Source of the DNA: Leifsonia aquatica H1aii
GTDB lineage: Bacteria > Actinomycetota > Actinomycetes > Actinomycetales > Microbacteriaceae
DNA: 64,000 nucleotides
Assembly (NCBI RefSeq): GCF_000633535.1
Contig: NZ_AYMR01000011.1
Coordinates: 248,001 to 312,000 of the forward strand
Reading direction: 5' to 3'
In this document: in pieces, positions 40,419 to 63,679 of the stretch
Position numbering within the stretch: position 1 is the first letter of the stretch
Layout: every line of letters begins with the position of its first letter
Notes under the pieces: generated by a model
Seen by the model: only the letters and a program-made list of their open reading frames with translations
Told to the model about the DNA's origin: nothing
The model's database searches: none
Translations under genes and position numbers: made by a program

Positions 40419-41168
40419 TCACCGCAACGGCGCCGGGCGGACCCGCACCGGCGCGAGCCAGGCGGCGACGATGACCGCGGTGATGGCGCCCGCGCACATG
40501 ATGGCGGCCAGCACGACGACCTGGAACCGGCCTGCCTCCAGCGGCGACACTCCCCCGAAGATCGCGCCGACGAAGGCGCCGGGCAGCGTCACCAGTCCCG
40601 TGGTCTTGGTCTGGTCGACCGAGGGGATGAGCGCCGAGTAGACCGCGGTCCGTGCCTGGTGGATGGTCGACTCCCTGGGCGTCGCGCCGAGGGCGAGCCA
40701 GCCCTCCACCTCGTCCCAGTGGTCGTCGACGGCCTCGGTGAACCGGCGGCCCGAGAGGGTCGCGATGCTCATGGAGTTGCCGATCACGATGCCGCCGATG
40801 GCCAGGGCGTAGCGGGCGCTCAGCTCGATGGCGCCGGTCGCGAAGACCACGACCGCGGTGACGCCGACACCGATCGCCATGGCGGACGCCATCATCGCCG
40901 CGTGGCCGGTGCTCCAGCCCACCCGCCGCGTGGCCGTCATGGCCGCCACTGCGAACATGACGAGCAGGGCGAGCGACACCCAGAGCGCGCTGGTGATGAC
41001 CCCGGACAGGACCACGCTGATCACCGCGAGCTGCGCAGCGCCCCGCACGATGGCGAGCACCGGAGCCCAGCGGTGCGGGACGCGGTACACGGCCAGCACC
41101 GCCGTCGCGATGAGCGCCAGCACGGCGACTCCGAGCAGCGTGGGGGCGAGCTCGCGGACGATCGGCAC
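40419..41168 (-). CDS. FetB/YbbM-type ABC transporter permease (UPF0014), 249 aa
   Basis: Seven predicted membrane segments and the family sequences G-N-S-M-S-I-A (near residue 127), L-A-L-G-A-T-P-R-E-S and L-P-G-A-F-V-G-A-I-F-G-G-V-S-P. The E. coli FetB relative works with the ATPase FetA in iron export/oxidative stress. No ATPase gene is adjacent here. Convergent with motB, with only 28 bases between. Confidence 0.85.
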   Translation of the reverse strand: MPIVRELAPTLLGVAVLALIATAVLAVYRVPHRWAPVLAIVRGAAQLAVISVVLSGVITSALWVSLALLVMFAVAAMTATRRVGWSTGHAAMMASAMAIGVGVTAVVVFATGAIELSARYALAIGGIVIGNSMSIATLSGRRFTEAVDDHWDEVEGWLALGATPRESTIHQARTAVYSALIPSVDQTKTTGLVTLPGAFVGAIFGGVSPLEAGRFQVVVLAAIMCAGAITAVIVAAWLAPVRVRPAPLR

Positions 41169-53668: not shown

Positions 53669-54010
53669 TCAGTTCGTCCGCAGGGCGGAACGGATCGCCG
53701 TGAACGTGCCGCCGGCCGCCTGCGAGGCGAACTGGAACCGCAACACGGTGTCCACATTGGAGAGGGTCTCGGTATCGAGGTTCACGTTGTTGCCGTCGAG
53801 ACGGGTCGGCTCGAGAGAACGCGCCGTGGTCGCGGTGGTATGACCGTCATGGTCCGCGACAGAACGCGCGAGGGCGTCTTCGAACGACACGCGCTCGGCC
53901 GTGTAGCCGGGCGTGTTGACATTGGCGATGTTGTTGGCGATCGCCCGCTGACGCGCGGCGAGGCCGTCGAGGGCGCTCGCGAGGGCGGCACTGGTCACGG
54001 ATTCGAGCAC
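53669..54010 (-). CDS. flgB: flagellar rod protein FlgB, 113 aa
   Basis: Rod motif A-L-D-G-L-A-A-R-Q-R-A-I-A-N-N-I-A-N-V-N-T-P-G-Y near residue 10-33 and a C-terminal helix. GTG at 54010 preceded by GGAG; the GTG at 54040 is an alternative. First gene of a 12-gene operon (flgB, flgC, fliE, fliF, fliG, fliH, fliI, fliJ, NlpC/P60, fliK, flgD, flgE), controlled by the sigma-28-type promoter at 54082-54109. Confidence 0.92.
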   Translation of the reverse strand: MLESVTSAALASALDGLAARQRAIANNIANVNTPGYTAERVSFEDALARSVADHDGHTTATTARSLEPTRLDGNNVNLDTETLSNVDTVLRFQFASQAAGGTFTAIRSALRTN

Positions 54011-54081
54011 AACGGCACTCCATCGAGGTCTGGTCGGCACATCCGTGGCCTGGTCGTCGAGCGATCCGTGCTCAGCGTGCT

Positions 54082-54109
54082 CTATCGGCCGGTCTCAGCG
54101 GCCCGTTAG
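54082..54109 (-). promoter_or_regulatory. sigma-28-type promoter of the flgB operon
   Basis: Minus strand CTAACG (54109-54104), 14 bases, GCCGATAG (54089-54082), 72 bases before the flgB start. Confidence 0.85.
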
Positions 54110-54113
54110 CAAT

Positions 54114-54393
54114 GTGTCCACGACTTCCCCACACCCTGAGGATCGACGTGTGGAAAGTGTGGATTTCCGACCCCGAAAAGAGGTATACCCACAGAGTCAT
54201 CCACAGCTCCACCGGGGGTGTGAATTACAGCACTGTTGTTTCGAAGAGGTGTTCGATCAGCTAGATCTTTGAGCATTTTTGCTGATCAAGCTGCATTTCA
54301 GTTTCCTGAGTGCCCTGAGCGTCCACACATCCCGCGCGTGTCCTCCACACTTTTCGCACCTCCATCCACCAGTTCTCCCCAGAGTTATCCACA
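54114..54393. other. cluster of nine DnaA-box-like 9-mers with AT-rich core
   Basis: Nine 9-mers with the core TCCACA or close: GTGTCCACG (54114), TTCCCCACA (54125), CTTTCCACA on minus (54149-54157), AAATCCACA on minus (54158-54166), ATACCCACA (54185), TCATCCACA (54197), GCGTCCACA (54319), TCCTCCACA (54341) and the perfect TTATCCACA (54385-54393). Between the two groups lies a 90-bp stretch (54221-54310) of 41% GC by hand count, far below the ~70% around it. This is the organisation of a replication origin (boxes plus unwinding element) or a DnaA titration/reactivation site; no dnaA or dnaN gene is near. Confidence 0.55.
54255..54287. repeat. 7-bp inverted repeat in the AT-rich core
   Basis: GATCAGC (54255-54261) and GCTGATC (54281-54287), separated by 19 bases with a TTTTT run, inside the AT-rich part of the DnaA-box cluster. 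Confidence 0.5.
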
Positions 54394-54434
54394 GGTGGAG
54401 AAGTCGCGCCGGGCGCGTCGCGGTGGAATCACCC

Positions 54435-54562: not shown

Positions 54563-54946
54563 TCAGCCGAGCAGGTCGAAGTAGACCGGTCGCGGACCCT
54601 GCTCGGTGCGCGGCACCGCCTTCACCGCGGCGAGGTGGCGGGCCGTCGTCTGACGGACGTCTTCGAGGTAGCGGATCGTGTGCGCCTGCGCCTCCAGGAG
54701 CCTCGTCGCGCGGTCGTGCAGCTCAGGCGGGATCGGCCCGAGCGCGATCGGCGGTCGCCACGGCACGGGTTCCTCCTGGGCGAGCGCACCGTGGAGATCG
54801 TTCTCCATCCGCTCCAGGGCCGCGGTCCACGGGCCGAGGACGTCAGGCGTGAGGACATCGGGCCCGAAGACATCGGGCGCCGTCGCGTCGGGCGCGGGAG
54901 GCTGCGGCCCGTCGCCCTGAGAAGCGGGCAGCTCCTCAGGCGACAC
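54563..54946 (-). CDS. putative flagellar chaperone (FliT/FlgN-like position), 127 aa
   Basis: Residues 1-40 are Pro/Asp-rich with repeated D-V-[FL]-[GT]-P elements; residues about 55-115 form a likely helical hairpin (L-E-R-M-E-N-D-L-H-G-A-L and R-A-T-R-L-L-E-A-Q-A-H-T-I-R-Y-L-E-D-V). It is encoded right after fliS, the place of FliT in other bacteria. The GTG at 54946 overlaps the fliS stop by 11 bases and has GGAG upstream; longer in-frame versions overlap fliS heavily. Function by position only. Confidence 0.6.
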   Translation of the reverse strand: MSPEELPASQGDGPQPPAPDATAPDVFGPDVLTPDVLGPWTAALERMENDLHGALAQEEPVPWRPPIALGPIPPELHDRATRLLEAQAHTIRYLEDVRQTTARHLAAVKAVPRTEQGPRPVYFDLLG

Positions 54947-55364
54947 CGAGGTCGCTCCCCGTCGCACCGGCGCCTGTCGCCGGGATGGCCGCGGCGGCCT
55001 CGTGCCAGGCCTGGCGGAGCGGTTCGACGAGCTCGATCGCCTCGCGCACCTTGGTGGCATCGCGCTCCACCGTCACGTCGACGATCAGCTCGGCCAGATA
55101 CGTGTAGAGCTGGAGGAGTCCGTCGGCGCCGTTCCACAGGTCGACGCGGAGACTCGAGGCCAGTTCGGCGACGATCTGATCGGCGTGCCGCAGGTTCTCC
55201 CAGGCGATCGGCCAGTTGTCGACGGTCAATGCCGTCTCGGCCCGGGTCAGGTCGAGCACCAGTCTGTCGTAGAGCATGGTCAGGAGGCGGGCGGGGCTCG
55301 CCGAGAGCACGCTGTCCCTGTTGTACGCGGAGAGCTTCGCTGCTGCGGAGTTCAGGACGGTCAT
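54936..55364 (-). CDS. fliS: flagellin chaperone FliS, 142 aa
   Basis: Four-helix FliS bundle: K-L-S-A-Y-N-R-D-S-V-L-S-A-S-P-A-R-L-L-T-M-L-Y-D-R-L near the start and Y-T-Y-L-A-E-L-I. It binds flagellin C-termini and carries them to FlhA. ATG at 55364 overlaps the fliD stop. Confidence 0.93.
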   Translation of the reverse strand: MTVLNSAAAKLSAYNRDSVLSASPARLLTMLYDRLVLDLTRAETALTVDNWPIAWENLRHADQIVAELASSLRVDLWNGADGLLQLYTYLAELIVDVTVERDATKVREAIELVEPLRQAWHEAAAAIPATGAGATGSDLGVA

Positions 55365-62407: not shown

Positions 62408-63679
62408 CTACTTCGCGGCCGTTTTCGCCGGGCAGGGTGCCGCCTTCGTCATGGCGTCGACCGCCTGAGCCTCCGACCACGGCAACCCCGCCACCGTCTT
62501 CGTCCCCTTCTGCACGGCGGGGACCTTGGACACGATGGAGGCGAACCGCTCGGCGAGGGCCTGCGCGAATCCCGCGCCGGGCGTGGAGTTGTTGAGGGCG
62601 ACGACCACCGTGAGCCCGGACGACGGATCGGTGTACATCGCCGACAGATAGCCCGGGATCGCCCCGCTGCTGCCACGCAGCGGCCCGACGAGTTGCACCC
62701 CCAACCCTTGCTTCTGCCAGGAGGCGCCGCTGGTCACGCCCGTCATCTGCGCATCGGCCGTCGCGCCGTCCAGCAGCGACCCTTCGGCGAGCGCCTGGCT
62801 GAACGACTTGAGGTCGCCCAGGGTCGAGACCACACCGCCGGCGGTCCAGCCCATCGACGGGGAGAGCCGGGAGACGTCGCGGACCGGCTCGCAGACCACC
62901 GCGCCCGCGCCGTCCACGCCGGCCGCGTAGCCGGCCGGGTGCGGGCCGGGGACGGTGAGCGAGGATGCCGCCGGCAGGATGCTGGCGTCCATCCCGAGCG
63001 GACCGAAGAGATGCTCCTGGTACAGGTCGGACCATTCCCTACCCGTCGCGTTGCGCACCGCCATCCCGACGAGAACGGCGTTCGTTCGGGCATCCCCGTA
63101 CTTCTCGCCGGGCTTGCCGGCCCGCGGCGCGGAGATCCCCTCGCTCGCGAGTTCGAGCGGCGGCCACTGCCTGGTCGGGTTCATCAGCATCCGACTGCTC
63201 AGCTGAGGGGAGTAGTCGCCGAAGCCGGACGTCTGCTGGCAGAGCTCGCGCATCGTCACGCCGTCGACGCCGACGAGTCCCGGCACCCAGGCGGTGACCG
63301 GATCGTCCAGGCCGAGGGTGCCGTCGTCCACCAGGTCGAGGAGCACCGTGCATGTCATCGGAACGGTGTTCTGACCGATCCGGAACGCCATGTCAGCGGT
63401 GACCGGCGTGGACCCTCCGCGCGTCGTCGTCCCCGTCGCCGCGGTCCAGCTGCCCGCCCACGGCGCCCAGACGCCCGCGAATCCGGCGGACGCGTCGGCG
63501 AGCGTCATCGCATCGGTGAGTGCGCCCTGCAGGCGCTTCTGCACGTCGGCCGAGAACACGCCAGGACGCTGGCTCGGCAGATCCGACGACGGCGACGTGG
63601 TGCACCCCGTCACGGCGAGCATCAGGATCCCCGCCGCGGCCGCGGTCACGGCCCGTCCGATCCGGCCCGCTCCTCGCAT
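62408..63679 (-). CDS. serine-hydrolase/beta-lactamase-fold lipoprotein, catalytically inactive, 423 aa
   Basis: A signal peptide with lipobox ending at C26 (L-A-V-T-G-C) anchors it outside the membrane. The fold is that of class C beta-lactamase/DD-peptidase-type proteins, with the expected helix starting F-R-I-G, but the S-x-x-K site reads Q103-N-T-V106, the Y-x-N motif reads Y-G-D, and the third K/H-T-G motif reads G-S-S-G. Thus all three active-site elements are altered. L-G-L-D-D-P-V-T-A-W-V-P-G and Q-Q-T-S-G-F-G-D-Y support the family. Probably a peptidoglycan- or ligand-binding pseudoenzyme. Convergent with fliW, 7 bases apart. Confidence 0.75.
   Translation of the reverse strand: MRGAGRIGRAVTAAAAGILMLAVTGCTTSPSSDLPSQRPGVFSADVQKRLQGALTDAMTLADASAGFAGVWAPWAGSWTAATGTTTRGGSTPVTADMAFRIGQNTVPMTCTVLLDLVDDGTLGLDDPVTAWVPGLVGVDGVTMRELCQQTSGFGDYSPQLSSRMLMNPTRQWPPLELASEGISAPRAGKPGEKYGDARTNAVLVGMAVRNATGREWSDLYQEHLFGPLGMDASILPAASSLTVPGPHPAGYAAGVDGAGAVVCEPVRDVSRLSPSMGWTAGGVVSTLGDLKSFSQALAEGSLLDGATADAQMTGVTSGASWQKQGLGVQLVGPLRGSSGAIPGYLSAMYTDPSSGLTVVVALNNSTPGAGFAQALAERFASIVSKVPAVQKGTKTVAGLPWSEAQAVDAMTKAAPCPAKTAAK

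Follow-up and report, generated by a model that had tools for sequence, protein, structure and literature searches.

The locus considered here raises the question of why a cluster of DnaA-box-like sites lies among the flagellar genes of Leifsonia aquatica H1aii. The window, that is, the whole 64-kb stretch of DNA that was analysed, belongs to contig C11 of a genome of 4.58 Mb in 76 contigs, and the cluster occupies the region between flgB (53669-54040, minus strand) and a small gene (54563-55060). A first-pass annotation had likened it to a bacterial origin or a DnaA-titrating site, and had added that it could couple DnaA activity to flagellar gene expression.

Composition and conservation of the cluster

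Between 54125 and 54402 there are 10 DnaA-box-like 9-mers with at most two mismatches, lying in both orientations, where nine had been counted before; 9 of them fall in the best 280-bp window. The perfect DnaA box TTATCCACA was confirmed at 54385-54393, and TCATCCACA, which has a single mismatch, at 54197-54205; this genome's copy of the element holds only these two boxes of such quality. Within the 64-kb window, the best 280-bp window more than 500 bases from the cluster contains only 2 such sites, and 1000 dinucleotide-preserving shuffles of 54114-54402 gave a mean of 0.8 sites and a maximum of 4, never 10. That is to say, the density of DnaA boxes in the cluster is not explained by chance, and several boxes beyond chance lie here in non-coding DNA outside oriC. 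Moreover, the sites surround the most AT-rich 90 bp of the window, which start at 54218 and have 41.1% GC compared with 71.2% for the whole window, in agreement with the earlier reading of 41% in DNA of about 70%; when ninety-base windows were taken in steps of 10 bases, a single one among 6391 had GC as low as this.

In the whole genome, TTATCCACA occurs 17 times compared with 3 for the reversed control, and sites with at most one mismatch occur 153 times compared with 108. The DnaA of this genome carries the motif GRDHTTV in domain IV, and its gene is located on contig C34, in line with the earlier remark that dnaA is not adjacent. Plasmid and phage records gave no match to the cluster region. 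Elsewhere in the same genome, a 70-bp segment immediately ahead of a radC-like gene, on its upstream side, contains three DnaA boxes (L004:1440-1509, corresponding to G000:C6:117801-117870).

With a 301-base query, the element was found in all 28 Leifsonia genomes searched, this one included, and blastn with the same query found it in none of nine genomes from other genera of the family. The 28 copies align over 223 columns with gaps in two columns only, one of which is terminal. The parts of the element and its neighbours are as follows.

53669-54040, minus strand: flgB, flagellar rod protein (Pfam Flg_bb_rod), a neighbour only
54083-54108, minus strand: promoter of flgB, which we take to be sigma-28-like, outside the element (TAA-N16-GCCGATA; pattern in 19 of 28 loci)
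54184-54405, plus strand: genus-wide conserved DNA element, its core named cl1 (28/28 same-genus genomes align, 63 invariant columns)
54185-54193, plus strand: weak DnaA-box-like site ATACCCACA, its CACA part mostly conserved
54197-54205, plus strand: left DnaA box TCATCCACA, with ATCCACA invariant in 28/28
54218-54307, no strand: most AT-rich 90 bp of the window (41.1% GC), a middle part fixed in length and variable in sequence among relatives
54219-54236, plus strand: conserved motif GTGAATTACA-N4-TGT, containing the weak minus-strand box TAATTCACA
54239-54256, plus strand: conserved palindrome TTTCGAA-N6-TTCGA, SOS-box-like, with GAAC-N4-GTTC in only 1/28 copies
54282-54288, plus strand: CTGATCA, with first C, first G and second C invariant
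54333-54349, plus strand: near-invariant CGCGCGTGTCCTCCACA, containing the box TCCTCCACA at 54341 (TCCTCCACA in 28/28)
54362-54370, plus strand: box-like site CCATCCACC with three mismatches, TCC-C invariant
54373-54381, plus strand: DnaA-box-like site TTCTCCCCA
54385-54393, plus strand: perfect DnaA box TTATCCACA, with GTTATCCACA in 28/28
54394-54402, minus strand: DnaA-box-like site TTCTCCACC, facing the perfect box
54563-55060, minus strand: small gene at the fliT position, without Pfam match, a neighbour only (presumably fliT, by position only)

The invariant or near-invariant parts are ATCCACA, parts of GTGAATTACA together with TGT, parts of TTTCGAA-N6-TTCGA, CG-GCGT-TCCTCCACA, TCC-C and GTTATCCACA. 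The core, which extends from the left box to where the perfect box ends, measures 195 bp in 19 genomes and 194 bp in 9 (n = 28), and its middle is mostly not conserved in sequence though its length is fixed. The spacers on the two sides range from 212 to 297 (to the FlgB landmark, n = 23) and from 20 to 192 (to the stop of the next gene, n = 22). A fixed length over a variable sequence is what a protein complex of set geometry would demand. The sites at 54125, 54149 and 54158, left of 54184, lie outside the genus-wide core, and the match to the 301-base query extends left of 54185 only in G021, G015, G010 and the genome under study; the conserved unit is therefore smaller than the cluster first described, whose origin-like make-up, denser than the background of the window and with boxes conserved across the 28 genomes, was otherwise borne out. 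Within this scope, both conditions that the first-pass annotation had named as refuting its reading turned out in favour of the cluster.

A pattern scan of the named species genomes returned 12 loci, 10 in Leifsonia and the others in Nocardioides and Microbacterium barkeri; outside Leifsonia, no match that was both strong and full-length was seen. An RNA gene was also considered and is unlikely, since Rfam gave a single snoRNA match at chance level, outside the element, and folding of the alignment predicted 4 pairs, none with a two-sided change, so that an RNA structure is unsupported.

Position near dnaA and the question of the origin

In all 23 genomes that have the element and dnaA on one contig, the element lies upstream of dnaA and on its strand, at a distance of 48.8 to 126.9 kb (median 60.2 kb); in the other 5 genomes, the one under study included, dnaA is on another contig than the element. 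The element is thus conserved both in sequence (28/28) and in place near oriC (23/23 at -49 to -127 kb). Several extra matches to the Bac_DnaA domain were noticed in G017, G022, G145 and other genomes, some in 3-4 copies of equal score, which we take to be IstB-like transposon ATPases.

The 320-360 kb around dnaA were analysed in seven genomes (G010, G013, G017, G022, G023, G025 and G027). Plain GC skew around dnaA is too weak to place the origin in these genomes. A change-point model was fitted to third codon positions; it ignores overdispersion, so its costs in log units are too sharp, and with this proviso a switch placed at the element is worse by 73 (G022) and 31 (G017) log units in the only two genomes with strong strand bias, where the switch falls at +2 kb and +4 kb of the dnaA domain, respectively, with 5% bootstrap bounds at -92 kb and -76 kb. 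The other five genomes do not discriminate; their equally over-sharp costs at the element and at dnaA are 2.3 and 3.9 (G025, where the model slightly prefers the element), 3.6 and 1.9 (G023), 5.2 and 0.9 (G027), 7.3 and 5.3 (G010), and 14.2 and 8.7 (G013). That is to say, of the check proposed with the origin reading, dnaA could be located, GC skew did not serve, and the third-position model was informative in two genomes of seven, in neither of which does the strand composition switch at the element. In both genomes whose bias is strong, the switch is found at dnaA-dnaN, which makes it unlikely that the element is the main origin.

That the element is a chromosomal origin, whether the main one or a second or backup one, in which the AT-rich middle would serve for unwinding, is accordingly a most improbable reading. 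DnaA boxes lie on either side of an AT-rich stretch (the 90 bp of lowest GC in the window), the spacing is rigid as in an orisome, and plain AT-skew windows switch sign near -60 kb in G025, G023 and G027, which gene orientation may explain. These points are opposed by the switch at the dnaA domain in G022 and G017, by the DnaA-box cluster that dnaA-dnaN itself has, and by the AT-rich part, which is not conserved in sequence. In addition, it is stated in a passage of PMC4285127 that unwinding elements never occur in the midst of a box cluster, which, as far as that passage goes, argues mildly against the AT-rich middle being one.

Related clusters around dnaA

Boxes with at most one mismatch cluster at recurring places around dnaA in the seven Leifsonia regions and in two other regions. 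In the seven, these places are cl1, cl2 at about -17 to -21 kb, a cluster at -0.6 kb, one at +1.1 kb (dnaA-dnaN) and cl5 at +15 to +18 kb; under this one-mismatch clustering rule cl1 does not emerge in G025, and some smaller pairs were seen at other places. The neighbours of cl2 in G022 are the gene of ribosomal protein L9 (rplI) and dnaB, and those of cl5 are a rhomboid gene and crgA. The region of G033, from another genus, has clusters at -19, -0.6, +1.1 and +13 kb, and no cl1-like cluster out to about -140 kb. G028 has its clusters at -4.0, -0.6 and +1.1 kb; one perfect box stands singly at -17.7 kb and another at -90.5 kb. The cl5 place has no cluster out to +41 kb, and over about 139-141 kb upstream of dnaA there is no cl1-like cluster, the perfect box at -90.5 kb standing alone. 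As no such distant cluster was seen over this range in G033 or G028, its function is either specific to the genus or carried out elsewhere in relatives.

Each half of cl1 was made into a profile and searched for in the nine regions. The right-half profile matches cl2 in 7/7 Leifsonia regions and in G033 (E 2e-4 to 2e-10), with only positions 84-134 of its 142 covered in G017 and G022; it also matches dnaA-dnaN weakly in G033 (E 3.5e-4) and G028 (0.011). The left-half profile matches cl5, again in 7/7 Leifsonia regions and G033 (E 4e-4 to 0.03), and cl5 has a motif similar to GTGAATTACA-N4-TGT of the element. In G017 and G022, the only two of the seven regions to show it, an extra cluster of six to seven boxes lies beside cl1, 0.3 kb away in G017 (at -49.3 kb of dnaA) and 1.4 kb away in G022 (at -128.5 kb), and resembles a second copy of the right half.

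When the whole element was used as a profile, 141 of the 299 genomes of the family gave a match. All 6 Leifsonia genomes did so strongly (E 1e-40 to 1e-49), and the matches in the remaining 135, out of 293 other family genomes, are far weaker (E 2e-9 and up). Outside the family, 8 of 197 genomes in a phylum-wide sample were matched. Among the matches listed, 65 in the family, from 51 genomes (4 of them Leifsonia), were placed relative to dnaA; this placement leaves aside 8 genomes with dnaA at the start of a contig of uncertain length (G084, G097, G138, G155, G185, G214, G271 and G305), the second match of G246, the C38 match of the genome under study, and genomes whose dnaA was not located. 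Of these 65 listed matches, 38 fall at cl2, on the opposite strand and between -16 and -43 kb, and a further 5 share this strand at greater distances. At dnaA-dnaN there are 8, and cl5 accounts for 5 (+13 to +17 kb); 6 lie at other places and the remaining 3 are not on the contig of dnaA. Thus 56 of the 62 listed matches on the contig of dnaA occupy recurring positions. A nearly full-length weak profile match was also seen in another genus 241 kb downstream of dnaA (G212:C5:284249-284459).

In summary, cl2 (rplI-dnaB) and cl5 (rhomboid-crgA) of the Microbacteriaceae are like the right and the left half of cl1, respectively, but their scores are far weaker, cl5 lies on the other side of dnaA, and cl2 lies mostly nearer to dnaA and on the opposite strand. 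The idea that the element is a composite of two modules kept apart in other genera was considered and is opposed by G080, G085, G093, G126, G164, G236, G310 and G342, eight genomes of other genera in which the cl2 match spans nearly the whole profile. Because of these nearly full-length matches, cl1 may be a copy of the whole of cl2 rather than two joined modules. The profile match to cl2 passes through CTGATCA in most genomes. The shared spacing and the extra motifs argue for common descent of the clusters, which is not proven, since part of each weak score comes from the DnaA boxes themselves.

The rhomboid-crgA gap (L129 of G022, and the corresponding place in six other Leifsonia regions, +15 to +18 kb of dnaA) has some 95 bp of strongly conserved sequence, in which DnaA boxes, TTATTAACA repeats and AATTACA-N5-TGTAA are found. 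In the Microbacteriaceae, DnaA boxes also form a conserved cluster in the rplI-dnaB gap (L128 of G022, at -17 kb). This cluster lies upstream of dnaB, the helicase gene, and may control it.

Possible function of the element

As to the flagellar genes, the sigma-28-like site reported upstream of flgB was found again, between the cluster and flgB. From this site, which lies between the element and flgB in 19/28 loci, and from the flgB coding sequence being close to the element in 23/28, one could suppose that DnaA controls the flgB operon here and so links motility to replication. Very little credence is given to this reading, for the spacing to flgB varies by 85 bp compared with 1 bp for the core, and the element is carried by five genomes in which the flagellar setting is lost, broken or rearranged. 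Genes flhA and fliF were sought in six genomes. Neither was found in G014 and G022; in G017 flhA is in two short pieces and fliF has one stop codon, about 640 kb along the contig, and the element is at 2,536 kb; G019 and G027 have both genes, but flgB is not adjacent to the element, which lies at the flhA end of the flagellar genes, beside a UPF0014-like gene and csrA (Pfam: G019 only). In G014 it lies between a UPF0014 gene (84% identical to 40419-41168) and a beta-lactamase-fold gene (71%, 62408-63679), which in the window are 21 kb apart with the flagellar genes between them, and near it only a few residues like the end of the next gene remain. Since the element is kept in G014 and G022 without flhA and fliF, flagellar coupling is not its general function, and the coupling suggested earlier is not upheld. 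It more likely helps to time chromosome copying than swimming. The locus also illustrates how a regulatory element can lie within a gene cluster seemingly unrelated to it.

The reading preferred here, which is judged reasonably probable, is that of a DnaA-box element close to the origin which, in the manner of datA-type clusters, titrates or remodels DnaA; among the roles proposed earlier, DnaA titration appears to fit best. DnaA is predicted to bind the perfect box TTATCCACA, the invariant TCCTCCACA and the ATCCACA sites, and would then fill the weaker boxes cooperatively, so that a nucleoprotein complex of fixed geometry over about 195 bp would result. Located 49-127 kb from oriC (dnaA-dnaN), the element is copied soon after initiation; its doubling would remove free or active DnaA from the pool and damp re-initiation, a mode of action like that of datA or of the DnaA-box clusters of Streptomyces and B. 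subtilis. Binding, cooperative assembly and the effect on initiation are all deduced from sequence, and the extra conserved motifs suggest that more than titration may be encoded.

The conserved sites might bind another protein, for example a LexA-type or other repressor, the resemblance to DnaA boxes being secondary. The LexA box consensus is TCGAAC-N4-GTTCGA, and a LexA (SOS) box was considered for the palindrome, whose own copy is TCGAAGAGGTGTTCGA (54241-54256) and whose form is conserved across the 28 genomes, and was set aside, GAAC-N4-GTTC occurring in 1/28 copies, that of G006 only. The conserved TTTCGAA-N6-TTCGA speaks for such a protein, as do 11 distinct TCGAA-N6-TTCGA sites in this genome compared with 1 in the reversed control, one of them beside what is presumably an imuA-like gene; the reading is still quite improbable, given that GTTATCCACA and ATCCACA, which match the DnaA box, are invariant in 28/28, and that the GAAC-N4-GTTC form is so rare. 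Known clusters repress initiation in tests, and an activating role of the DARS kind would look the same here. A DARS-like site (ADP-DnaA to ATP-DnaA) or a datA-like site (faster ATP hydrolysis) instead of plain titration is an unlikely reading, yet one with some support: boxes of both orientations are present, and the set spacing, together with the conserved motifs that are not DnaA boxes, recalls the helper-protein sites described for datA and DARS2 in parts of PMC5742627.

Returning to the titrating or remodelling element, a bolder version can be put forward only tentatively, as a speculation with a small chance of being right. It holds that Leifsonia would have an added DnaA hub, a fixed-length orisome-like complex made of the rplI-dnaB and rhomboid-crgA modules, with a second protein, serving as a DnaA reset (DARS- or datA-like) or a backup origin; if true, this would be a new class of replication control element for Actinobacteria. 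To our knowledge, once-per-cycle control of initiation in Actinobacteria is little studied beyond the best-studied models. Literature searches for DnaA boxes in Microbacteriaceae returned nothing, those for the Leifsonia replication origin with DnaA returned genome papers only, and those for DnaA boxes with rplI and dnaB returned an archaeal review only. The family-wide elements stand at recurring places relative to dnaA, and their alignments predict which bases are essential, that the length is constrained and where co-factors may bind, which opens the datA/DARS question to direct tests in Microbacteriaceae.

In the features tested, cl1 fits the known kind of cluster; what sets it apart is that its length is fixed, that it has extra motifs and that it resembles other clusters. 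A DnaA-box cluster of Streptomyces coelicolor, also an actinobacterium, was reportedly described by Smulczyk-Krawczyszyn et al. in 2006. According to excerpts of PMC4585315 and PMC5742627, the cluster near oriC in this species represses untimely initiation. The high-affinity box of Streptomyces is given in a passage of PMC4285127 as TTGTCCACA, compared with TTATCCACA here; extra motifs and a length fixed across the genus distinguish the Leifsonia element. In B. subtilis, of another phylum, clusters also lie outside oriC. Loss of all six DnaA-box clusters (DBCs) leads to early initiation according to part of PMC5295017, and they are said in part of PMC5010248 only to titrate DnaA, with their position mattering. 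The parallel is tempered by a remark in the same part of PMC5295017 that clusters with a significant role have not been found there, and, unlike these DBCs, the Leifsonia clusters partly resemble each other. For E. coli, it is reported in sections of PMC5010248 and PMC5742627 that the distance of datA and DARS to oriC is conserved and matters; datA, like cl1, consists of DnaA boxes clustered in non-coding DNA, and its relative distance from oriC is conserved (PMC5010248, same section); it needs an IHF site and promotes hydrolysis of DnaA-ATP (PMC5742627, same section). DARS1 and DARS2 share with cl1 the non-coding location, fixed spacing, at least three boxes, two orientations and a conserved chromosomal position, as far as those sections describe them (PMC5010248, PMC5742627). 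The DARS feature proper is a three-box core, with box I opposite to II and III, at set spacing and with release of ADP; here both orientations are seen.
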